64,000 nt of DNA from Deltaproteobacteria bacterium (lineage in GTDB: Bacteria > Desulfobacterota > Desulfobulbia > Desulfobulbales > Desulfobulbaceae): assembly GCA_024280455.1 (NCBI GenBank), contig JAJRQC010000094.1, forward strand, positions 1 to 64,000, given 5' to 3'. Below, piece after piece: positions 8,429 to 27,784 of this stretch. Made by a program: the position numbers and the translations under genes. The stretch's first letter is position 1; each line of letters starts with the position of its first letter. The notes under the pieces were generated by a model. It did no database searches. It was not told the origin of the DNA and saw only the letters and a list, made by a program, of their open reading frames with translations.

Positions 8429-10351
8429 ATGACTGAGAAAAAAGAAACAGAGGCCTCTGATAAGGCCAAAAAGCAAAAAATACAAAAGGCAACAACCGGT
8501 GCCTGGTGGAAAGGGGTCTCCAACCTGCTGGGCAAGAAGGATTCGACGGAATCGAAGGAGTCCGACAACTCGGCACCTGTAGTGGAACAACAGGCCAAGC
8601 CGCCTGAAGAACCCAAAAAACAGAAGAGAAAAAAACGTTCTGCTCCGCGCAAACCCAAGGCGGTGGTGGAGAAAACGGAAGAGACCGGGGACGTGCCGGA
8701 GAAGGATACTCCGAAAAAGAAGGCTTCTCCAGAGGGTAGACAGAGCGGACAGCGGAAAAAGCAACCCAAATCCGGAGGCCCCGGCCGGCAAAAAAATGAG
8801 GAACGGACCGCACCGCAGAAAACGCCTGAGAAAAAAGGACTGGTTAAGCTGCTGATCAATGCGGAGGAGCCGGAGGAATGCCGCATAGCCCAGGTGGAGA
8901 ACGGGCGCCTGGACTCCTACCATGTTACCACCGTGGTTCGGGAACGGACAAAAAATAATATCTACAAGGGCAGGATTGTCGCGGTTGAGGCCAACCTGCA
9001 GGCGGCCTTTGTCGAGATCGGCACCGACCGCAACGGTTTTCTGCCCTTTAATGAGATCCATCCTGAATATTTTCGGGAGGATGTCGGTGAACGTGACCGG
9101 AAGCTTATCTCCCAGCACCAGTGGAAGAAGCTGAAGATCGAAGACGTGGTCAAAAAGGGCCAGGAAGTTCTGGCCCAGGTGGTCAAGGAGGTGACCGGCA
9201 ACAAAGGCGCCAATATGACGACCTACCTTTCCCTGCCGGGCCGGAGCCTGGTGCTGATGCCGGGAAGTGACAGTGCCGGGATTTCAAGAAAAATCGTCGG
9301 TGAGGAGCGGAGATCCGCCCTGCGGGAAATAATGAGCAACTTCTCCATTCCCGAAGGCATCGGCTATATTATTCGAACCGCCAGCGTTGATATTACCAAA
9401 ACCGCCCTGCAGAAGGATTTACGCTATCTGCTCCGTCTCTGGAAGGAGATCAAAAAACGGGGCCAGACCATGAATGCCCCCTCCCTTGTCTATGAAGAGC
9501 AGGATACGGTGGTTCGTTTCCTGCGCGATCATTTTGTCCCTGAAATTGATGAGATTCAGGTCTACACCGAGGAGTCCCTGGAACAGGTGAAGCAGTTTGT
9601 CGAGTTGCTGCCCACAAAACAGAAAAAGGTACAGGTTAAACTGCACCGGGGGGCAAAGCCCATCTTCAATCAGAACAATATTGAAGAACAGATTGAGTCA
9701 ATCTATAAACCCCAGGTGCCGCTGCCGTCGGGTGGGTCGATTGTTATCGACCCGACCGAAGCCCTGGTTGCCATTGATGTCAACTCGGGCCGGACCTCAA
9801 AAAACGGGGATTTTGAAGAGACCATATTCCTTGCCAATATGGAGGCCGCGGTTGAACTTGCCCGGCAGCTCAGGCTTCGCGACCTTGGCGGTCTGATCGT
9901 GGTCGACTTCATTGATATGCGCAATAAAAAGCATATCCGCGAGGTCGAAAAGCAGGTGAAAACCAGTATGAAACGGGATAAGGCCAAGGTTGATATAAGC
10001 CGGATCTCCCGGTTTGGCCTGATGCAGATTTCCCGCCAGAAAATGGGTGCACCGATTGAGAAGGGCAGTTACCTCACCTGTGAGCACTGCCAGGGACGGG
10101 GGGTGGTAAAATCGGTTGAGACCCAGGCCCTGTATTATCTGCGCCGCATCCAGACCGGTATTCTGCGCAAAAAAATTCAACGGGTGGAATGTAGATTGCC
10201 ACTGGACGTTGCTAATTATCTGCTCAATAAAAAGAGGCGGGAAATTGCCGACCTTGAGGCAAAGCACCGTGCCTTCATTGACATTATCCCGCGGCCGGAA
10301 ATGAAACCCGGTGACAATCAGATTGAATTTCTTCAGGCCCCGGGGGCGTAA
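8429..10351 (+). CDS. Ribonuclease E/G family protein
   Basis: 640 residues. Residues 1 to ~135 are a low-complexity Lys/Glu/Pro-rich extension, unusual because RNase E normally has its disordered part at the C-terminus. Residues ~140 onward match the RNase E/G catalytic core: AQVENGRLDSYHV, an S1-like RNA-binding segment (IYKGRIVAVEANLQAAFVEIG), VAIDVNSG, GGLIVVDFIDM, and the zinc-link CEHCQGRG. It should be an endoribonuclease for mRNA decay and rRNA/tRNA processing. Without a long C-terminal scaffold it resembles RNase G more, with the charged arm moved to the N-terminus. A tRNA gene lies 78 bp downstream. Confidence 0.93.
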   Translation: MTEKKETEASDKAKKQKIQKATTGAWWKGVSNLLGKKDSTESKESDNSAPVVEQQAKPPEEPKKQKRKKRSAPRKPKAVVEKTEETGDVPEKDTPKKKASPEGRQSGQRKKQPKSGGPGRQKNEERTAPQKTPEKKGLVKLLINAEEPEECRIAQVENGRLDSYHVTTVVRERTKNNIYKGRIVAVEANLQAAFVEIGTDRNGFLPFNEIHPEYFREDVGERDRKLISQHQWKKLKIEDVVKKGQEVLAQVVKEVTGNKGANMTTYLSLPGRSLVLMPGSDSAGISRKIVGEERRSALREIMSNFSIPEGIGYIIRTASVDITKTALQKDLRYLLRLWKEIKKRGQTMNAPSLVYEEQDTVVRFLRDHFVPEIDEIQVYTEESLEQVKQFVELLPTKQKKVQVKLHRGAKPIFNQNNIEEQIESIYKPQVPLPSGGSIVIDPTEALVAIDVNSGRTSKNGDFEETIFLANMEAAVELARQLRLRDLGGLIVVDFIDMRNKKHIREVEKQVKTSMKRDKAKVDISRISRFGLMQISRQKMGAPIEKGSYLTCEHCQGRGVVKSVETQALYYLRRIQTGILRKKIQRVECRLPLDVANYLLNKKRREIADLEAKHRAFIDIIPRPEMKPGDNQIEFLQAPGA

Positions 10352-10429
10352 GCTTGGAGATATGTACACAGGAGAAGGAAATTTCTTGCGCTTCGGAATG
10401 AGATGCGCTATGAATGCAATCCGCAATAT

Positions 10430-10506
10430 GCGCCTGTAGCTCATCTGGATAGAGTATCGGACTACGAATCCGAGGGTAGCAGGTTCGAATCCTGCCAGGC
10501 GCACCA
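10430..10506 (+). tRNA. tRNA-Arg (anticodon ACG)
   Basis: A 77-nt cloverleaf with acceptor GCGCCTG/CAGGCGC, the CCA end encoded, anticodon loop CTACGAA between TCGGA and TCCGA, and T-loop TTCGAAT. Anticodon ACG (read as ICG after deamination) decodes CGU/CGC/CGA arginine codons. A strong terminator follows within 8 bp. Confidence 0.96.
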
Positions 10507-10513
10507 GAAATAC

Positions 10514-10554
10514 CAGCCTCTTAACCGTTTCAGTTAAGAGGCTGTTTTTGTTTC
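10514..10554 (+). terminator. Intrinsic terminator after tRNA-Arg
   Basis: A perfect 12-bp stem, CAGCCTCTTAAC / GTTAAGAGGCTG, with a 7-base loop, followed by TTTTTGTTT. It ends the tRNA-Arg transcript and perhaps RNase E/G read-through. Confidence 0.92.
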
Positions 10555-10657
10555 GTGCCGGTTCTGGTGTTGCACTTATTGCTTATCCGTGTTGCCCCTG
10601 CAGTTCAAATCTTGTGTACGAGGTCATTGTTTTTATACTAATAGAAAAAATGTCCTT

Positions 10658-10879
10658 TCAAGCCCACCAGATCGAGCGTTTGGGTGGGTTGCCGTTTTTA
10701 TCGAACACATCGCCCGATTCCTTGAGGATTTTGTCCAGCTCTTCGACGGTGAAGTTATAGCCATCCTCGGCAGCCAGGGTGACAAATTCATCCATGGTGG
10801 CGGGAACGTTATATTTGGCACGGAAATGTTTATCCTCGCCCCCTGCAATAAGTAAATTTTCTACGTCTTTTCGAGCCAT
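10658..10879 (-). CDS. Nif11-type small protein
   Basis: 73 residues, MARKDVENLLIAGGEDKHFR, then TMDEFVTLAAEDGYNFTVEELDKIL, which is the Nif11 domain pattern (DEFVxLAxxxGYxFTxEEL). It ends with GNPPKRSIWWA and has no cysteine-rich core, so it is not evidently a lanthipeptide precursor. Nif11 proteins were first seen in nitrogen-fixation clusters, where their function is unknown. A clear AAGGGAG site precedes the ATG. It is the last gene of the run that begins at nifH. Confidence 0.82.
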   Translation of the reverse strand: MARKDVENLLIAGGEDKHFRAKYNVPATMDEFVTLAAEDGYNFTVEELDKILKESGDVFDKNGNPPKRSIWWA

Positions 10880-10920
10880 AGGTGTCTCCCTTGGTTTCTT
10901 TTTGTTAATGAGTTGTTTTT

Positions 10921-11217
10921 TTATAAAAATTCAATCTGGATATTGCCGTCATCCGCCTCGTTCAACCGATAGCGGCCACCGTGGCCGAATACCAGGCCCA
11001 GTTCTGTGCCCTTGGCCTGAAGAAGGGCAATGGCAATGGTCAGCTCATCTTCGTTGGCCTGGTCATTTATAAGGATGGCCAGTTGATGCGGGTTGTCACT
11101 AAACTGCAGCAAAAAACCGTTATGTTCGAGAAAGATCAGATCCTCATAGGCATAGGAAATATCCATGCCTGCTGCTGACAGGGCTTCGCGTACCAGTCCT
11201 AACTCCCTGGTGGTCAT
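10921..11217 (-). CDS. Unknown small nif-cluster protein
   Basis: 98 residues, acidic and mixed alpha/beta in appearance (REALSAAGMDISYAYEDLIF, HNGFLLQFSD). No signal peptide, membrane segment, cysteines or family motif recognised. The start codon overlaps the stop of the HEPN-like gene by 4 bp, implying translational coupling and a linked role. The end is followed 41 bp later by the Nif11-type gene. Confidence 0.7.
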   Translation of the reverse strand: MTTRELGLVREALSAAGMDISYAYEDLIFLEHNGFLLQFSDNPHQLAILINDQANEDELTIAIALLQAKGTELGLVFGHGGRYRLNEADDGNIQIEFL

Positions 11218-11678
11218 TGTGTTTTCTCCCGGATCAGGGCATGAATCAGATTTTGCAGTTGAGCGGCGATCTCCAGCATGCCGGCAATCTCCTTACGTTT
11301 GGGCGGCCTGATCATGAAGGCATCCACATCGCAGATTTCCTGGTAGCGATCCAGAGCAATAATTTTCTCCCTGATCTCGCCCAAAGCCCCGGGAAAGGTT
11401 TCTTCCATGGCTTCAACCAGATCACCCATGGTGTGGTTATAGGGCAGGGCACCGTATTTCATCAGGGCTGCCATGACGAATTTTTCAATGGCCATGGCAA
11501 TGATGTTATAGAGAATCTCCGGAGTAAACACCTCTCTCCTTCTGGCGTAGGCACCGTGGCCGGTTTTTAAATACGCCTCTCCCTCGTGCAGGAATTCTTC
11601 CCATCCTTCAATGGGCTGGGTTTTGATGTCATCAAACCCTATGAGAGAAGGAGCTGTGTCTGGGTTGGTTTCAAGCAT
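11214..11678 (-). CDS. HEPN-domain-like nif-cluster protein
   Basis: 154 residues, largely helical. The middle (MAIEKFVMAALMKYGALPYN followed by H-T-M-G-D-L-V-E-A-M) resembles the HEPN fold, in which a first helix with AEK..A and a later H-x-L..L helix pair up. It has no obvious catalytic RxxxxH arrangement of a toxin-type HEPN, so a binding role is as likely. An AAGGAG site precedes the ATG. It is translationally coupled to the next small gene by a 4-bp overlap. The HEPN call rests on pattern reading only. Confidence 0.6.
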   Translation of the reverse strand: MLETNPDTAPSLIGFDDIKTQPIEGWEEFLHEGEAYLKTGHGAYARRREVFTPEILYNIIAMAIEKFVMAALMKYGALPYNHTMGDLVEAMEETFPGALGEIREKIIALDRYQEICDVDAFMIRPPKRKEIAGMLEIAAQLQNLIHALIREKTQ

Positions 11679-11705: not shown

Positions 11706-12161
11706 TTACCGCTTATACAGGCAGATGAGTTCAGTTTTTCGCCATTTCAACGTGTGATAAAATTTCAGAGCCGCCGTGTTTGATCGGTCTGCCAGCAGTT
11801 GCAGGCGCAAGACGTTATTCTTTGTCGCCCAATCCTGCAAAGCCGTAAGCAGTGCCGTACCCACCCCTTTATTTCGCCAGGGCCTGTCGACAACGACATC
11901 CTCCACCAGCAGGGATAAACCACCCTCTGCGGTAGAGACCATGAGCTGGCCGCAACACATGCCGATGACCCTGGTCTCCTTTTCCGCCACCAGCAGGATG
12001 GCGCGATCACCGACAAGCATCATCGCCAGGCCCGCCCGTTGCCGGACAGGGTTAAAGGTAAAATCCTTCTCTATGCTGAAGAGGCTGCGGAGCAGGTGAA
12101 GCAGAAATTCCATATCTGCCGGTTGGGCTCTGCGTATGATTACCCCGGACATGGTTTGCAC
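11706..12161 (-). CDS. GNAT-family N-acetyltransferase
   Basis: 151 residues with the GNAT core: IRRAQPADMEFLLHLL at the start, VEDVVVDRPWRNKGVGTALL (the acetyl-CoA loop, R-x-x-G-x-G/A) near residues 91-110, and LRLQLLADRSNTAALKFYHTL at the end. A GTG start at 12161 has GGGAG six bases upstream; an ATG nine bases later is an alternative. It should transfer an acetyl group to an amine or protein lysine. Its place between the ferredoxin and HEPN-like genes, behind nifK, suggests a nitrogenase-related target, but this is inference. Confidence 0.85.
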   Translation of the reverse strand: MQTMSGVIIRRAQPADMEFLLHLLRSLFSIEKDFTFNPVRQRAGLAMMLVGDRAILLVAEKETRVIGMCCGQLMVSTAEGGLSLLVEDVVVDRPWRNKGVGTALLTALQDWATKNNVLRLQLLADRSNTAALKFYHTLKWRKTELICLYKR

Positions 12162-12181: not shown

Positions 12182-12484
12182 TTAGGAAATAAGGTAATCA
12201 GCCGCAGGTTCGCCATCTTCCAGGCCGTCGAGAATAGCATCAATGGCCTCTTCGGAGTTGACCTCTTTAAACCACCAGTTTTCCGGCTGAATCACCATGA
12301 TCGGGCCATTGTCACATTGTTTGAGGCAGGTGGTGGCCGAAATTAAACAGTCCAGACCCCGATCAAGCACCTCTTCTTCAATGTATTGTAAAAAACCATC
12401 AGTTTCCTTGTGGCAGATGCCCTTTTTGTCACCCGACACTCTAAAACTCTGACAGACCAGTATCTGTCGTTCTGCTATAGCCAT
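12182..12484 (-). CDS. Thioredoxin-like [2Fe-2S] ferredoxin
   Basis: 100 residues with four spaced cysteines, C11 and C24 (CQSFRVSGDKKGIC) and a TTCLKQC pair near residues 52-57, matching the thioredoxin-fold [2Fe-2S] ferredoxin family that includes the Clostridium pasteurianum protein reported to interact with MoFe protein. The motif ISATTCLKQCDNGPIMVI is characteristic. A GAGGTG site precedes the ATG. Likely an electron carrier or structural partner of nitrogenase. It follows the NifB-like gene after a gap that holds an inverted-repeat element. Confidence 0.85.
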   Translation of the reverse strand: MAIAERQILVCQSFRVSGDKKGICHKETDGFLQYIEEEVLDRGLDCLISATTCLKQCDNGPIMVIQPENWWFKEVNSEEAIDAILDGLEDGEPAADYLIS

Positions 12485-12693: not shown

Positions 12694-13767
12694 TTATTTA
12701 CATTTTCCTTTCTTGCCACCACCGTAAAGAACATCGACCATCCCCTCAATCTGATCTTCGGTAAGGATGACCCTGATCCCCTCCTTGGCCAGATACTGGC
12801 GGGGGGCCTCACCGGCATGGGAGGCGAGCAAGGCGAAACAGTCGGGTATGGCTGCGGCTAAACTCAGCCAGCGATCCGGGCTGCCGCCGGGCGGAGTATC
12901 TCGGGTATCGAGCAGGCAGGTTAAACCATCATCTCGTGGGCCATAGATCAACAGTTTGCCGGCCTGCCCCAGGTGCAAATCCACATCCATGCCGTTACTG
13001 CTTGCCACGGCCACATTAGGCCGCTCCCTGCCAGGCTTGGGAGTGACGGGTGTTAAACCCGATTGCGGAGTGCCGGGAGGGGGCAGGTCGGGTTCCGGTT
13101 GAAAGACTGTTGCCGTAAGATGGGACGAGGCCTGGCGTGCAAGCTTTTCAAGGTCGGCTCCTTCTCCGGTTATTTCCATGACCGTTGCGCCGAGTTCAGC
13201 CATCTTCTCGGCAATGGCCGTGATCTCATCTTCATTGATTCCTTGCTGGATAGTGGTTCGCAGAGCGACCTGTATTCCGGCCTCGGTAAAGCTTTGTACC
13301 GCCTCTGCTTGATCCTGGATGAGGATTTCTGTGGCTTGGGGCAGAGGCACGGTCTTCCTGGCCGGCCTGATCCAGCGGTAGATTTTTGCTGCCGTTTTCT
13401 GGTTTACCGTGTCCACCAGCACCGTCACCCTGTCGACCCCAAGGTCAGCCAGGTCAGCGGCGTGAACGACTCCGTTCAACCCCAGGGTGGTGAGAGAAAT
13501 CCTGCTCCCCCTGGCATGGGCCGGTAAAAGCTCCAGACAGGCCCGGGTAGCGGGCCAGGAAGCCAGCACGTCACCGGGACCGCACAGCTCAATGGCTGGG
13601 ATCTCCTTGCCGCCTCCCTGCAAATCATCCAGCCATGCCACCGCCTCAGCCGGAATCATGGCTGGAGGTGTTTTCCCTTCCGCTGCTGCCCGCAGGCAAT
13701 GATTGACATTGGGGGCGATGGAAAGTGTCAGATTAATGCTGACACGATGTGGTGGATTTTTTGTCAT
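12694..13767 (-). CDS. NifB-like/NifX-like fusion lacking radical SAM cysteines
   Basis: About 357 residues. Residues ~55-215 align by eye with the NifB barrel (ELCGPGDVLAS against AGPGDPFA; LTTLGLN against LASNGLN; LADLGVDRVTVLVDTVN; IQQGINEDEI against VIPGINDHHI). However, the C-x3-C-xx-C cluster motif of NifB is absent; the N-terminal part has a single Cys at about residue 24. The last ~110 residues are a NifX/NafY-type domain (VAVASSNGMDVDLHLGQAG). An AAGGAG site nine bases away favours the ATG at 13767 over 13776. It follows nifK, with a strong hairpin between. A cofactor-binding or scaffold role is more likely than radical chemistry. Confidence 0.82.
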   Translation of the reverse strand: MTKNPPHRVSINLTLSIAPNVNHCLRAAAEGKTPPAMIPAEAVAWLDDLQGGGKEIPAIELCGPGDVLASWPATRACLELLPAHARGSRISLTTLGLNGVVHAADLADLGVDRVTVLVDTVNQKTAAKIYRWIRPARKTVPLPQATEILIQDQAEAVQSFTEAGIQVALRTTIQQGINEDEITAIAEKMAELGATVMEITGEGADLEKLARQASSHLTATVFQPEPDLPPPGTPQSGLTPVTPKPGRERPNVAVASSNGMDVDLHLGQAGKLLIYGPRDDGLTCLLDTRDTPPGGSPDRWLSLAAAIPDCFALLASHAGEAPRQYLAKEGIRVILTEDQIEGMVDVLYGGGKKGKCK

Positions 13768-13801
13768 AGTCGTCATCTCCTTCCAAATAACCGGTGGTGT
13801 A

Positions 13802-13826
13802 CGTTACACCGCAGAGCGGTGTAACG
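13802..13826. other. Hairpin between nifK and NifB-like gene
   Basis: CGTTACACCGC and GCGGTGTAACG form a perfect 11-bp stem with an AGA loop. Nearly the same hairpin occurs at 26395-26424, downstream of nifB. Neither has a T-tract on the minus strand, so an RNA-processing, stability or partial attenuation role is more likely than full termination. Confidence 0.8.
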
Positions 13827-13857
13827 AGGCCGGACGTTCTCTGTACCAGAAACCCTT

Positions 13858-15231
13858 TTACAGCACCAGCTCAAAGCTGGTCTCAGGATCATCGCGATCC
13901 TTACGATCCAGCAGGGCATTGAGGATTTTTTCCAGCAGCCGCAGGCCACCCTTATATCCTACCGTCGGGAAGTACTGGTGTCCCTGGCGATCCAGGATCG
14001 GGAATCCCCATCGTATCAACGGTACATCCTCGTCCCTGGCCATATATTTTCCGTAGGAGTTGCAGATCAGGAGATCCACCGGCTCATTCTTCATCCACTG
14101 ATGGAGAAGGAAGAGGTCACCCTTGGCCTTGACATTGACGTCGATGCCCATGCCCTCGGTGAGCTCCTTGATCCGTTTTTCAAACTTCTTGCCCGGGGTA
14201 CCTGTGACGATATGGACCGGACACATATCAATGGAGACCAGAAATTCCACCATGGCGATGACCTGATCCGGATCACCGGCAATGGCCACTTTCTTCTTGT
14301 AGAAGTACTGATGCATGTCGGTAATAAGATCAACCAGCTGGCCTCGTTCAAAGGACAGTTCGTCAGAGACTGAAACTCCGGCGATGGTGCGCAGGGCATC
14401 GACAAAACGATCGGTGGCCTGAAGACCAAAGGGCATATCCAGCCCCTTGCACGGCACCTTGCATTTCTTGTCCAGCTCGCGGGCCGCCGCTGCCGAACAC
14501 CATTCGCCCAGGGCCAGGGTGCCGATGGAATCACCGGTGGATTTCAGTTCTTCAATGGTGGTTCCACCGTCCGGGAACATCTTGTATTTCCCGGTCATGG
14601 GGCCGTTTAAGACACCTGATGTGTCCGGGAATATGATGGTTTCAACTCCGGTGAGTTGTGCCATCCGCTTGATCTCTTCCATGTCGGAGGGCTCTACCCA
14701 GCCGGGAATGATGTTGATCTTGCCGTTTTTCTTGTCTGTTCTCTCGGAAAATTCCACCATGGACTTGACCATGGTGGAAAAACCGGTAACGTGTGAACCC
14801 GAATAGCTTGGCGTGGAAGCGCCGAGGACATATTTGCCCTCCGGGATCTTGCCTTCCATTATGGCTTTTTTTCTAATCTGGGGCAGATCGTCGCCGATGG
14901 TCTCTGACAGGCAGGTTGTATGCACGGCAATGACATCGGGCTCGTAGACCGTGAAGATGTTATTGATGCCCTGCAGCAGGTTGGCCTGGCCGCCGAAGAC
15001 GGAGGCCCCTTCAGTAAAGGAACTGGTGGCGGCTGAAACCGGCTCTTTATAGTGACGGGTCAGGGTGGAACGATGGTAGGCGCAGCAACCCTGGGAGCCA
15101 TGACTGTACGGAAGGCATCCGTGGATGCCCAGCGCCGCGTACATGGCACCGATAGGCTGGCAGGTCTTGGCCGGATTAATGGCCAGGGCCTTGCGCTCTG
15201 GTATTTCTTTTGGTGTATGTCTCAGTAACAT
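13858..15231 (-). CDS. nifK: Nitrogenase MoFe protein beta subunit NifK
   Basis: About 457 residues from the ATG at 15231 (GAGG nine bases upstream); the open frame reaches 15300, but the extra part is not NifK-like. P-cluster cysteines lie in AKTCQPIG, GSQGCCAYH and HTTCLSETIGDD. The protein lacks the ~50-residue N-terminal extension of Azotobacter NifK, as in Clostridium- and methanogen-type (group II) nitrogenases. With NifD it forms the alpha2-beta2 MoFe protein that reduces N2. It is separated from nifD by 238 bp that include a heptanucleotide array. Confidence 0.97.
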   Translation of the reverse strand: MLLRHTPKEIPERKALAINPAKTCQPIGAMYAALGIHGCLPYSHGSQGCCAYHRSTLTRHYKEPVSAATSSFTEGASVFGGQANLLQGINNIFTVYEPDVIAVHTTCLSETIGDDLPQIRKKAIMEGKIPEGKYVLGASTPSYSGSHVTGFSTMVKSMVEFSERTDKKNGKINIIPGWVEPSDMEEIKRMAQLTGVETIIFPDTSGVLNGPMTGKYKMFPDGGTTIEELKSTGDSIGTLALGEWCSAAAARELDKKCKVPCKGLDMPFGLQATDRFVDALRTIAGVSVSDELSFERGQLVDLITDMHQYFYKKKVAIAGDPDQVIAMVEFLVSIDMCPVHIVTGTPGKKFEKRIKELTEGMGIDVNVKAKGDLFLLHQWMKNEPVDLLICNSYGKYMARDEDVPLIRWGFPILDRQGHQYFPTVGYKGGLRLLEKILNALLDRKDRDDPETSFELVL

Positions 15232-15419
15232 TGAAGAAACCTCTATTTGTAAAGTTACATTTCTCGTCATGCCCGGGTAAGTTGTCGGGTATCCAGGCAA
15301 CCGAATTGGCCATGGAATACGCTGGATCCCCCGCCTGAAAGACCACGGGGACGACAGGATTGGGCACCTGCGAGGATAACGAGCAGGAAAAAAATTACCG
15401 GCGATTAACGTTCAGTGAA

Positions 15420-15469: not shown

Positions 15470-17104
15470 TTATTCCCAGACATAGGCAGCTGTGAGTTCA
15501 GGATTTTCCTGCCAGGGGGCCTTCAGGTAAGCCCATACCTTGGAGCTGGTTAACCTGTCTATTTCCTGGTAGAAATTAACGGCACCCTTGAAACCGGCAT
15601 AGGGGCCGCCGGAATCGTAGCTGTGCAGTTGTTTCATAGGTATCCCCAGTTTCATGATCGAGAACTTCTCCTTGATGCCGGCGCAGAAGATATCCGGTTT
15701 CATAAGTTCCACCAGCTTTTCGGCCTCGTACTGATTGAGGTCGTCAATAATCAGGGTACCCTTTTCCATGTCCGGGATTAAACCATTATAATTCTTAAAG
15801 TCCATGCCGGCTTTTTCCAACTCTGCCATCTGCTCCGGTGTTTTCCGGGGTGCATAGCGGGTCTCGTCGGCCTCAACCTCAATTTCCTCGATGTTCCGGC
15901 TGTCCGCGTCCACCTTGAGAGGCAGTACCTGGCGACCTTCGTAATCGTCACGATGGGCAAACTCGTAACCGGCGGAGATGACCTTCATGCCCATTTCGTT
16001 GAAAAGCCCCTGGTAATGATGGGCTCTGGAGGCACCGACAAAGAGCATGGCAGTCTTACCTTCGGTGCGGGTGCGTACCTCAGCGGCCGCAGTCTCTACC
16101 TCGGGCATCTCTTCGGCAATGACTTTCTCCACCTGGGCGATGAGTTCCTTATCATCAAAATAGGCGGCGATCTTGCGCAGAGATTTGGCAGTGGACTGGG
16201 CGCCGATGAAGTTGACTTTGACCCACGGGATCCCGTACTTGGTCTCCAGCATGTCGGCCACGTAATTAATTGAACGGTGGCACATGACGGCGTTTAAGTC
16301 CGCCGTATGGGCTGAGGCAAACTGGTCATAGGTGGCATTGCCTGAAAAGGTGGAAATGCAGGTAATGCCGCACTTTTTGAATATTCGGTCAATCTCGAAT
16401 CCATCGCCGCCGATATTGTATTCGCCCAAGAGGTTGATCTTGAACTTGCCGGGCTTGACCTCGTCGTTTTCTCCGACAATGTGCCTGAAGACCTGATTGT
16501 TGGCGATGTGATGACCGGCTGACTGGCTGACACCCTTATAACCCTCACAGGAGAAAGCATAGACGTTACAGTCGCCGAATTTTTCCTTCATGAGTCTGGC
16601 CACGGTATGAATATCATCACCGATCAGCCCCACCGGACAGGTGGCAAATATTGCAATGGACTTGGGGTGAAAGATGTCGTAGGCTTCCTGAATAGCCGTT
16701 GTCAGTTTTTTTTCGCCGCCGAAGATGATATCCTGCTCCTGCATATCAGTGGAAAAGGCGTAGGGGATGTAGTTTTCGCCGTTCTCCCCTGCATCGGTCT
16801 GGTTGCGGCGGGTAAGCCAGGCGTAAAAACTGCAGCCGATAGGGCCGTGTACCAGGTTGACGATATCCCGGGTAGGCCCCATGATAACGCCCTTGCAACC
16901 GGCATAGGTACAACCGCGCATGGTAATAATACCGGGAATGGTCCGCACATTAGCGGTGATTTCCGGGGTCTCGTTTTCAAGCGCCTCATTGATCATGATC
17001 TGCTTGGCGCGTTTACGGGCAACTTTGGGGGGATATTTGGCAATCAGCTTGCTTTTGATATCCGCCGGATCCCATTGCACCAGCTTTTCCTTTATTTCCG
17101 TCAT
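15470..17104 (-). CDS. nifD: Nitrogenase MoFe protein alpha subunit NifD
   Basis: 544 residues. The P-cluster ligands correspond to C65 (MRGCTYAG), C91 (GPIGCSFYAW) and C156 (TCPVGLIGDD). FeMo-cofactor ligands are C275 (MCHRSINY) and H494 (LHSYDSGGPYAGF). Gln194 and His198/199 (GVSQSAGHHIAN) match the active-site residues of molybdenum enzymes, not the vanadium or iron-only forms. A ~50-residue insertion near 385-445 is the hallmark of the C. pasteurianum-like group. It catalyses N2 reduction with NifK, receiving electrons from NifH. Confidence 0.98.
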   Translation of the reverse strand: MTEIKEKLVQWDPADIKSKLIAKYPPKVARKRAKQIMINEALENETPEITANVRTIPGIITMRGCTYAGCKGVIMGPTRDIVNLVHGPIGCSFYAWLTRRNQTDAGENGENYIPYAFSTDMQEQDIIFGGEKKLTTAIQEAYDIFHPKSIAIFATCPVGLIGDDIHTVARLMKEKFGDCNVYAFSCEGYKGVSQSAGHHIANNQVFRHIVGENDEVKPGKFKINLLGEYNIGGDGFEIDRIFKKCGITCISTFSGNATYDQFASAHTADLNAVMCHRSINYVADMLETKYGIPWVKVNFIGAQSTAKSLRKIAAYFDDKELIAQVEKVIAEEMPEVETAAAEVRTRTEGKTAMLFVGASRAHHYQGLFNEMGMKVISAGYEFAHRDDYEGRQVLPLKVDADSRNIEEIEVEADETRYAPRKTPEQMAELEKAGMDFKNYNGLIPDMEKGTLIIDDLNQYEAEKLVELMKPDIFCAGIKEKFSIMKLGIPMKQLHSYDSGGPYAGFKGAVNFYQEIDRLTSSKVWAYLKAPWQENPELTAAYVWE

Positions 17105-17199: not shown

Positions 17200-17574
17200 T
17201 TACGCAATGGCTTTGGCGCCGGTCTCACCTGTCCGTACGCGCACAGCGTCAGAGATAGGCAGAACAAAGACCTTGCCGTCTCCCGGCTTGCCGGTCTGGT
17301 TGGTCTTGATAATGGTCTCCACCACTCCGGCCACCTGGTCGTCTTCAGTGACTATGGTGATCATCCGCTTGGGGTAGAGTTTGCCCTTTTCCCCAAGCAG
17401 GGCGGCGGCTTCTTCGTAGCCTTGTTCCGCACCGGCCAGCACCTGTGGGTTGACGAATCCTTTACCGCGGCCTTGAGCCTCGTGGGCAAAGAAAGCGTCA
17501 ACACCGGCTGCGGTCAGGGCCTTTTTTGTCTGGTTCATCATGTTTATCCGCACGACGGCGATCACCTCTTTCAT
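17200..17574 (-). CDS. nifI2: Nitrogen regulatory PII-like protein NifI2
   Basis: 124 residues of the GlnB family, with KEVIAVVRINMMNQTKKALTAAGVDAF and the B-loop region TGKPGDGKVFVLPISDAVRVRTGE, and a T-loop of the NifI2 type (VNPQVLAGAEQ) rather than the uridylylated GlnB T-loop. In methanogens NifI1 and NifI2 act together to switch MoFe protein off after ammonium addition and respond to 2-oxoglutarate. Its start overlaps the nifI1 stop by 4 bp. Placed between nifI1 and nifD, as in group II clusters. Confidence 0.95.
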   Translation of the reverse strand: MKEVIAVVRINMMNQTKKALTAAGVDAFFAHEAQGRGKGFVNPQVLAGAEQGYEEAAALLGEKGKLYPKRMITIVTEDDQVAGVVETIIKTNQTGKPGDGKVFVLPISDAVRVRTGETGAKAIA

Positions 17575-17927
17575 GCCGGTACCCCCTCGGAGGCGGCAGC
17601 TGTATCCAGTACACCGGAACTGATGGTGTAGGACTCTTCCACCGGGCTGATAAAGATCTTGCCGTCACCAAATGCGCCTTTTTTCTCGGTCCGTGCTGTT
17701 TTCATAATGGTATCAATCACAAAATCCTTGTCTGCCTCGTTGATCACACTCATCAACATGGTTTTGGGGATCTCGTCATAGGTGACCTCCCCGATCTTGA
17801 TACCGCGCTGTTTGCCCCGGCCGGCCACCGAGTATTTTGTTACGGCCGGAAAACCTGCATCCATGAGGGCTGCCAGTACCGCGTCTGATTTTTCCGGTCT
17901 GACAATGGCTCGAATCATAATTATCAT
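17571..17927 (-). CDS. nifI1: Nitrogen regulatory PII-like protein NifI1
   Basis: 118 residues: IIMIRAIVRPEKSDAVLAAL at the start, the NifI1-type T-loop GRGKQRGIKIGEVTYDEIPK, and GAFGDGKIFISPVEESYTI at the end. It is the partner of NifI2 in post-translational control of nitrogenase by nitrogen and energy status. GGAG lies upstream of the ATG at 17927; a second ATG nine bases on is possible. It begins 51 bp after nifH. Confidence 0.95.
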   Translation of the reverse strand: MIIMIRAIVRPEKSDAVLAALMDAGFPAVTKYSVAGRGKQRGIKIGEVTYDEIPKTMLMSVINEADKDFVIDTIMKTARTEKKGAFGDGKIFISPVEESYTISSGVLDTAAASEGVPA

Positions 17928-17977: not shown

Positions 17978-18901
<924 letters not shown>

Positions 18902-25950: not shown

Positions 25951-26265
25951 TCAACCCTCGGTAATCTCACTGATTGATCGTTTTCCGACTATAGCCTTGA
26001 TACCTGATTTCGCCAGCTCTTTTTCAGGGCGTTCACCGATCCTGGTGCAGTAAACCTGAGTGCAATCCTTGAGTGGATCGAGTACTTCGGCCATCCTCTT
26101 GCCGTCAAAGAGATGCTCCTTGTCGCCGGTTGATAACGGCGTTACCTCTCGAACCGTGACCAGATTCAGCTTGTCACCGGTGATATCATAAATGAAAAAC
26201 CTCTCGGCCCGGCCAAAGTGTTCGTTGACTGTTTCGCCGTCGGTGGATGCTATGGCTACCCGCAT
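25951..26265 (-). CDS. NifX/NafY-family cofactor-binding protein
   Basis: 104 residues of the dinitrogenase iron-molybdenum cofactor family: MRVAIASTDGETVNEHFGRAERFFIYDI, then a Cys-containing middle (DCTQVYCTRIGE) and KSGIKAIVG. NifX-type proteins hold NifB-co or FeMo-co precursors during transfer. It follows nifB after a 172-bp gap containing two palindromes and precedes modA by 19 bp. The symbol is left open because NifX, NafY and VnfX cannot be told apart here. Confidence 0.88.
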   Translation of the reverse strand: MRVAIASTDGETVNEHFGRAERFFIYDITGDKLNLVTVREVTPLSTGDKEHLFDGKRMAEVLDPLKDCTQVYCTRIGERPEKELAKSGIKAIVGKRSISEITEG

Positions 26266-26437: not shown

Positions 26438-27715
26438 TCATCCACATCCGGTTCCGGTACCGACGCAGGCCTCTTTAGAAGAGCATTTATGCATCCGTCC
26501 CTGCAAACTGGTCAGCCCTTTGCCGGTGTAGACCGCTTCCAGCCCTTTTTCAATGAATCCGGTCATGGTGACCGGATTGATGCCGTTTTCCTTTAAGGTG
26601 GTCTTCGGGCTCTCGCCCAGGTCACTGACAAGTATGGCCCGGCAATCGCCAAGAATGCGACTAATATTGAACCAGCGCTGGGATCCGCCCCCTGCAGCAG
26701 GAGCAGGACGCTCCTCAATCAGCCGGTAGCCCCCATCCCCATTTTCGCCCCAGATCTGAAACCGGGTCGCCTCGCCGAGATGTTGATTGACCAGTACTCC
26801 TTCCAGTGTGGCCACGGCGACATAGAGCCGTTTGGCCTCGGAATGTTTCGGCAGTTTGGCACAGACTGAAAGGCAGCCCCGCATCTCATCGGTTTTGTCA
26901 TCATCGAGCAGCCCTACAGCATCGGCCCGGCAGCGGGTACAGTGCCGCATCTGGGGCAGATGTTTTTCCGCCTGATTGCGAAGCTTGGTCATGGTTGCCT
27001 TGGACGGTTCAGGAACATCTTCAAAAACAGTATCAGCGTTGGGGAACATGGCCATGCAGTTAAGGAGGTCCGCCCCGAGCTTTTTCATCATTCCGGCAAC
27101 CTCGATGATGTGGTGGTCATTGATCCCGGGAATGACGATGGTATTGATCTTCACCGTTATACCATATCGCTTCAGTTTTTTAATCGCGCTGATCTGACGA
27201 GCCAGCAGCAGTTCCGCCCCCTGCAGACCGCGGTAGAGTATTTTGCCGTCACGGACCCAGGAGTAGATGTCTTTAGTGATCTCCGGATCAACCGCATTAA
27301 CGGTCACCGTCACATGGGAGACCCCGATCTCGGCAAGTTCAGGCACATGGGGCTCCAGGTTCAGTCCGTTGGAGGCCAGGCAGAGTATTGTATCCGGATA
27401 GGTTGTGCGGATAAGGCGCATGGTTTCCAGAGTATCATCAGCATTGGCAAAGGGATCACCGGGGCCGGCAATACCGGCGACTGAAATACGTGGTTCTTTT
27501 TCCAGGACCTTGCCCATGTAGTAGAGTGCCTGCTCAGGCGAGAGGATGGTGCTGGTCACCCCGGGTCTCGATTCATTGACACAGTCGTATTTACGGTTAC
27601 AGTAATTGCACTGGATATTGCATTTAGGTGCCACCGGAAGATGGACCCGGCCGTACTGCCCCTTGACCTTGGCGTTGAAACAGGGGTGTCGGTTGAAATC
27701 GATTTTTTCGAGCAT
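26438..27715 (-). CDS. nifB: FeMo-cofactor maturase NifB
   Basis: 425 residues from the ATG at 27715 (GGGAG seven bases upstream). Radical SAM cluster motif C32-x3-C36-xx-C39 (KCNIQCNYC), plus C12 and C45 as further NifB cysteines, and AGPGDPFANADDTLETM. The C-terminal ~120 residues add a NifX-like domain (VAVATLEGVLVNQHLGEATRF) and a cysteine-rich tail. It fuses two [4Fe-4S] clusters with a SAM-derived carbide to make NifB-co. Follows nifN in the nifE operon. Confidence 0.97.
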   Translation of the reverse strand: MLEKIDFNRHPCFNAKVKGQYGRVHLPVAPKCNIQCNYCNRKYDCVNESRPGVTSTILSPEQALYYMGKVLEKEPRISVAGIAGPGDPFANADDTLETMRLIRTTYPDTILCLASNGLNLEPHVPELAEIGVSHVTVTVNAVDPEITKDIYSWVRDGKILYRGLQGAELLLARQISAIKKLKRYGITVKINTIVIPGINDHHIIEVAGMMKKLGADLLNCMAMFPNADTVFEDVPEPSKATMTKLRNQAEKHLPQMRHCTRCRADAVGLLDDDKTDEMRGCLSVCAKLPKHSEAKRLYVAVATLEGVLVNQHLGEATRFQIWGENGDGGYRLIEERPAPAAGGGSQRWFNISRILGDCRAILVSDLGESPKTTLKENGINPVTMTGFIEKGLEAVYTGKGLTSLQGRMHKCSSKEACVGTGTGCG

Positions 27716-27784
27716 GCTTTTCTCCCTTGATAAACTGGTAATACAGGATTTTTTCAAGTCTATGGAAGTGCCGGCCGTCTCAAT

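Follow-up and report, generated by a model that had tools for sequence, protein, structure and literature searches.

The window, the whole stretch of 64,000 nucleotides analyzed here, comes from a sulfate-reducer-type bacterium and carries a nif cluster on the reverse strand, in which the gene directly behind nifK encodes a NifB paralogue without cluster ligands, henceforth pNifB (Table 1). The usual gene order at such loci is nifH-nifI1-nifI2-nifD-nifK-pNifB-ferredoxin-GNAT followed by two small genes without a family match. The longer open frame of pNifB (12694-13776, 360 codons) opens at ATG 13776, from which residues are numbered in this study, albeit ATG 13767, the start already given in the sequence-only reading, is the better one because the ribosome binding site GGAAGGAG sits 9 nt before it. 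Between nifK and pNifB lies a perfect inverted repeat, CGTTACACCGC-TCT-GCGGTGTAACG (13802-13826, reverse strand), which is not followed by a T run and is possibly a stem-loop stabilizing or processing the mRNA; as a conserved element, this hairpin scored a z of only -1.4.

Table 1. Genes and features of the pNifB locus and of the nifB region in the window.
Feature	Coordinates	Strand	Evidence or remark
98-aa protein, pNifB gene group	10921..11217	-	no Pfam/NCBIfam match; conserved
154-aa protein, pNifB gene group	11214..11678	-	no Pfam/NCBIfam match; conserved
GNAT acetyltransferase, pNifB gene group	11706..12161	-	PF00583, E 3e-14
2Fe-2S ferredoxin	12182..12484	-	NF041612, 54 bits, under cut-off 150; follows pNifB at nearly all homologous loci
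pNifB (NifB paralogue, no cluster ligands)	12694..13767	-	357 aa from ATG 13767
Lys-rich C-terminal tail	12697..12720	-	seen in most homologues
NifX-like domain, residues 252-352	12721..13023	-	PF02579, 28 bits; NafY core Z 12.5, NifX Z 11.3
His268, equivalent of NafY H121/NifX H35	12973..12975	-	kept in 48/48; aligned with 1P90 and 9IAN
Degenerate NifB barrel, residues 14-224	13105..13737	-	AF2 pLDDT ~90; VIA Z 26.3 to 7jmb/7jma
GPGD, residues 66-69	13570..13581	-	GPG kept in essentially 48/48 family members
V24-N-H-C-L-R-A-A31 in place of NifB CNIQCNYC	13684..13707	-	alignment
Ribosome binding site (Shine-Dalgarno) GGAAGGAG	13777..13784	-	9 nt before ATG 13767
nifK, directly upstream of pNifB	13858..15300	-	TIGR01286, 448.9 bits, above cut-off
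nifD	15470..17104	-	position and similarity in nif cluster
nifI2	17200..17574	-
nifI1	17571..17927	-
nifH	17978..18835	-	sigma-54-like promoter (10/11) 125 nt upstream
Small NifX-like protein adjoining nifB	25951..26265	-	PF02579, 69 bits
Intact nifB (catalytic NifB)	26438..27757	-	TIGR01290, 390.5 bits, above cut-off

The sequence-only reading had described the product as keeping four NifB barrel patterns (CGPGD, TLGLN, GVDRVTV, and QQGIN) while lacking CxxxCxxC, in a region shortened around the motif site. All four patterns are indeed there, no radical SAM site is left, and the loop that carries C62, E65, and ExRP in NifB is absent. The relationship to NifB, which that reading had left to a profile search and a structural overlay, holds by both. 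NCBIfam TIGR01290 (nifB) matched pNifB with 100.5 bits (E 8e-29), far short of its cut-off of 343.65, and Pfam Radical_SAM fell 0.1 bit under its cut-off. NifB was the top match when the PDB was searched with pNifB by sequence and by structure, and in a second structural alignment the predicted barrel reached Z 26.3 to NifB vs 17.4 to the radical SAM enzyme ranked second. The second nifB gene that had been noted is intact, with HPC, CNIQCNYC, ExRP, and CTRCRADAVG, and its product shares 28% identity with pNifB over the length (E 3e-37). Thus, pNifB is a genuine NifB paralogue. Another radical SAM family was rejected as its source, as NifB stood well above viperin and MoaA in both sequence and structure.

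The motifs that define NifB are missing all the same. Cx3Cx2C was found in 32/32 NifB sequences vs 0/48 members of the motif-less family, and the alignment leaves none of the three radical SAM cysteines in the V24-A31 segment of pNifB. HPC is absent from pNifB of the window and kept within the family only in L122; ExRP went with the deleted loop; Cx2CRxDAxG occurs in 0/48 members; and the TxTxN site reads TVLVD in the window. At the AGPG site of the window's protein, GPG is kept and Ala is replaced by Cys. As these defining tests failed, pNifB was not filed as a NifB enzyme; it is a member of the NifB/NifX superfamily, most likely working like NafY or NifX. A sequencing artefact repaired in close relatives, raised in advance as an objection, is refuted by the 48 related proteins from many genomes, all of which are motif-less and encoded by open frames.

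We analyzed 80 sequences by the maximum-likelihood method in IQ-TREE (LG+C20+F+G4 by PMSF). All of the 48 motif-less proteins grouped together with full support (100/100) and were nested in the NifBs of the phylum, on a stem of 0.93 that is long enough to make the exact sister of the clade less sure. An origin from NifX by fusion was rejected, as the full-length tree places pNifB inside NifB. Inside the clade, the family coded f54 branched first and f29 next, followed by the window's order. When the ligand assignments of PMC9692996 were transferred to this phylogeny, the radical SAM cysteines, C62, and E65 turned out to be lost in all pNifB lineages and the K2 cysteines were essentially lost across the family. 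The K1 ligand His42 was kept in f54 and f29 and lost in the window's order; Cys128 was kept in f29 and likewise lost in the window's order. L122, which belongs to f54, bears HPC together with SNIRRRFG at the site of NifB CNIQCNYC. In a minority of the members of the window's order (about 30%), one Cys of the Cys-rich and poorly alignable N-terminus falls close to the HPC Cys in the alignment. The loss of ligands thus looks stepwise, following the branching order. In the window's group, the alignable metal-ligand positions were kept at 1% vs 45% for other NifB-invariant positions of the barrel (permutation p 0.001). Of the 48 pNifB sequences as trimmed, 14 have at least two cysteines among their 28 N-terminal residues, and the N-termini of L042, L058, L062, L063, and L041 contain clusters such as CCC, CNCAC, CCPC, and CSC.

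PF02579 (Nitro_FeMo-Co) matched the C-terminal part of pNifB above its cut-off of 26.3 bits, and it matched 35/36 family members at E <= 0.001. The fusion to a NifX-like domain put forward from the sequence is therefore present. Its apparent oddity did not survive: a barrel with a NifX-like domain is the layout of 73% of bacterial NifBs (PMC5715403), so that pNifB inherited the fusion, which is nothing unusual in itself. The profile of the domain aligned the invariant His with NafY H121 (1P90, E 1.1e-4) and NifX H35 (9IAN, E 0.024), which are known ligands of FeMo-co and NifB-co (PMC8496260, PMC13128457). Modelled alone, the domain resembled the NafY core and NifX well above unrelated folds (Z of about 6), in a model of moderate confidence (pLDDT 77). 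Fold by itself does not mean cofactor carriage, because NafX and NifY of A. vinelandii keep the fold while the His is absent (PMC13128457). Retention of the His may reflect ancestry and fold constraints, since canonical NifB keeps it too, yet the low dN/dS of the domain speaks against this. The Lys-rich tail of most pNifB proteins is GGGKKGKKC-like and differs from the NifE-docking tail described for NifX.

Across 17 genomes with both genes, NifB identity was 64.6% in the barrel and 59.5% in the NifX domain, and the corresponding values for pNifB were 39.1% and 58.3%, a reversed ranking in which the NifX-like domain is conserved to the same extent as in NifB. The whole-protein dN/dS of pNifB ranged from 0.12 to 0.39, from few pairs, some of which had high dS; the ratio was lower for the NifX domain than for the barrel in all pairs computed. 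This pattern of dN/dS and identity implies that the barrel is not drifting freely and that the NifX-like domain is held tightest.

Homologues of pNifB were found about 30 times in 57 relatives sampled from genus to order, with 42-52% identity. The gene was present in 33/36 genomes with nifK vs 0/21 genomes without it (Fisher p 9.5e-13), the former comprising 35 genomes recognized by score and G035, in which nifK is cut by the contig end (L072). Searching 395 genomes of the phylum with a profile added a second order (f29, six genomes), f54 (two), and f91 (one), as well as further members in the window's order; many of the genomes surveyed are metagenome-assembled and incomplete. Named carriers are Desulfogranum marinum, Desulfosediminicola flagellatus, and Candidatus Desulfobulbus rimicarensis, and no clear member from outside the phylum appeared in the plasmid collection searched. 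The three nifK-bearing relatives without pNifB indicate that it is not essential. In G039, its absence is clean, with 11 nt between nifK and the ferredoxin gene.

The position behind nifK, conservation of which had been an issue from the start, recurs in 43/48 assessable loci (40 scored by script, the window, and L124 and L040, both mis-scored by the script; L040 is the same locus as L068). Five loci, which belong to two genera (L048, L049, L057, L060, and L064), have a unit of pNifB, ferredoxin, GNAT, and unknown genes apart from nifHI1I2DK. All five have an exact sigma-54 promoter (TGGCAC-N5-TTGCT) 61-95 nt upstream of pNifB, although they do not count as five independent events because a single ancestral relocation is possible. 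Their score was reached by 0/500 composition-matched random sequences, and the upstream regions were otherwise dissimilar to each other. An exact upstream site for NifA was found in only one of them, L057. In many nif clusters of the order, the genes for the 154-aa and 98-aa proteins trail those for pNifB, ferredoxin, and GNAT, and they move along when the pNifB unit relocates away from nifHDK.

The suspected specificity to nifI-containing clusters stood in one direction. Wherever the cluster was seen, pNifB accompanied one of the nifHI1I2DK type, but it does not mark nifI clusters generally: N. vulgaris, Desulfobacter latus, and the three of the 36 nifK-bearing relatives mentioned above have nifHI1I2DK and no pNifB. 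Several other arrangements were met in the survey. D. latus (L043) possesses two NifB genes, both full-length and with all motifs intact (9881-11182 and 13302-14702), beside one nifHI1I2DKEN-type cluster, as well as a NifB-like fragment (9089-9511). On a plasmid of N. vulgaris DP4 (L045), a gene for the antiviral reverse transcriptase Drt2 (15754-17037) lies directly behind the nif cluster. Genomes G044 and G013 encode short NifB-like proteins of a single domain in which CxxxCxxC is intact (L079 and L085), and the gene of L085 adjoins divergent nifH/nifD/nifE-like genes that may form a nitrogenase-like system.

Compared with two-domain bacterial NifB, pNifB shares the barrel fold, the domain order, descent, the GPG turn, and the His of the NifX domain. 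It differs in lacking CxxxCxxC, HPC, ExRP, and CxxCRxDAxG, without which it would be unable to hold the RS, K1, and K2 clusters as NifB does, and in sitting behind nifK with the true NifB encoded nearby. NafY and NifY, the assembly factors of the MoFe protein in A. vinelandii, resemble it in the NifX-like C-terminal domain, the cofactor His of NafY, and the possession of a second, N-terminal domain; the gene for NifY is linked to nifK, as is that for pNifB. In contrast to NafY and NifY, the N-terminal domain of pNifB is predicted to be a dead NifB barrel instead of a small helical domain, and the whole protein descends from NifB. With NifX, pNifB has in common the fold of the domain and the equivalent of H35, but only pNifB bears a barrel, and its tail is basic whereas that of NifX is a helical one for NifE docking.

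Extra copies of NifB occur in Paenibacillus, and NifB3 has lost the fingerprint motif in two strains. Those two copies, in which CxxCRxDAxG and the NifX domain are missing and the radical SAM motif is still present, were deemed likely non-functional (PMC8287671); pNifB, in contrast, has no radical SAM motif and is subject to selection. Arragain et al. (2017) dropped 28% of putative NifBs, most of them without Cx3Cx2C, as being "instead NifX" (PMC5715403). The excluded annotations and pNifB are alike in missing that motif and bearing the NifX domain, and pNifB may have been among them; unlike what those authors judged, the pNifB class has a clear NifB barrel and is not simply NifX. No prior description of pNifB was found in the open-access literature searched.

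That pNifB is without radical SAM catalysis is well supported by the alignments, and the chemistry of NifB is very unlikely to be performed by a protein in which the RS, K1, and K2 ligands are missing. As it is conserved across an entire bacterial order, it probably functions as a helper protein. Binding of FeMo-co or a precursor, a chaperone, a sensor, and competition with NifB had been listed unranked; the evidence favors cofactor binding and a chaperone-like role, leaving the sensor and the competition with NifB as rivals. From sequence, structure prediction, and comparative genomics, we propose that pNifB is a NifB pseudoenzyme reused as a NafY/NifX-like carrier of FeMo-co or NifB-co in the maturation of NifDK, a reading that we judge about equally likely to prove right or wrong. 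One duplication of nifB in Desulfobacterota would have given rise to a copy that lost the ligands of the radical SAM cluster first and nearly all K1/K2 ligands afterwards, and retained the NifX-like domain with its His for NifB-co or FeMo-co. The protein would be made with NifDK, or under the same type of promoter. The NifX-like domain may then carry FeMo-co (or NifB-co), and the old barrel may recognize apo-NifDK or NifEN, a docking task that falls to the N-terminal domain in NafY; both the partner and the direction of transfer are inferred. The proposal builds on the analogy to NafY and on the location of the gene with nifDK. NafY has a separate N-domain that binds apo-NifDK and a core that binds the cofactor (PMC8496260), and the MoFe protein devoid of cofactor copurifies with NafY and NifY (PMC6016461). 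As the barrel is unrelated to the helical N-domain of NafY, docking by the barrel is argued from analogy only.

The descent from NifB, the preserved barrel fold, and purifying selection on the barrel would also suit a partner or brake of the true NifB, which pairs with it (NifBs of A. vinelandii and K. oxytoca are homodimers; PMC5715403) or competes for cluster donors or NifEN and thereby tunes the flow of NifB-co. We consider this rather unlikely, as in the window and in most genomes pNifB is linked to nifHDK instead of nifB, and the barrel evolves faster than the NifX-like domain, contrary to expectation for a part that has to preserve an interface with NifB. Similarly, the NifX-like domain with its His, for which the C-terminal model fits NifX nearly as well as NafY, may point to a NifX-type carrier of NifB-co that serves NifEN only, redundantly with the small NifX and with no role for NifDK. 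The location behind nifK speaks against such a carrier, and the small NifX adjoining nifB in the window and some relatives could already serve NifEN, making the idea doubtful. Small PF02579 proteins proved too numerous per genome for a count of NifX-like proteins to show whether pNifB replaces NifX.

Of the SAM-side turns, GPG, G99, and N181 persist, and nifI genes are present in the nif contexts seen, so a sensor, in which the barrel or the NifX-like domain perceives SAM or the cofactor and signals to NifI or NifA, deserves mention. We regard it as improbable: the other pocket residues (N130, T152, K203, and N205 of NifB) are lost, the main anchor of SAM is gone along with the cluster, there is no output domain, and many nifI clusters do without pNifB. 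A decaying, functionless duplicate carried with the operon would account for the faster evolution of pNifB than NifB and for its absence from three nifK-bearing relatives, and degenerate copies of nifB3 in Paenibacillus have been called possible pseudogenes (PMC8287671). Open frames in all homologues, the range of dN/dS given above, retention across an order and other lineages, and the separate sigma-54 promoter where the gene is relocated render decay highly improbable, and we disfavor it.

Returning to the carrier for NifDK maturation, a broader version is that a radical SAM barrel, having lost its clusters, was remade as a domain for protein docking (or for sensing SAM or the cofactor), and that nifK-linked pNifB is a distinct maturation factor of the MoFe protein in Desulfobulbales-type nif systems, replacing NafY/NifY. 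We put this forward tentatively, as a possibility we would sooner doubt than rely on. NifB is the bottleneck enzyme for nitrogenase cofactors and for efforts to engineer other hosts to fix nitrogen. Proteins of the pNifB type can pass for a second nifB or be dismissed as NifX when nif genes are surveyed. That selection has kept a NifB pseudoenzyme throughout a bacterial order suggests an assembly factor undescribed in the open-access literature searched, and pNifB offers a natural test of the role of the NifX-like domain apart from catalysis.
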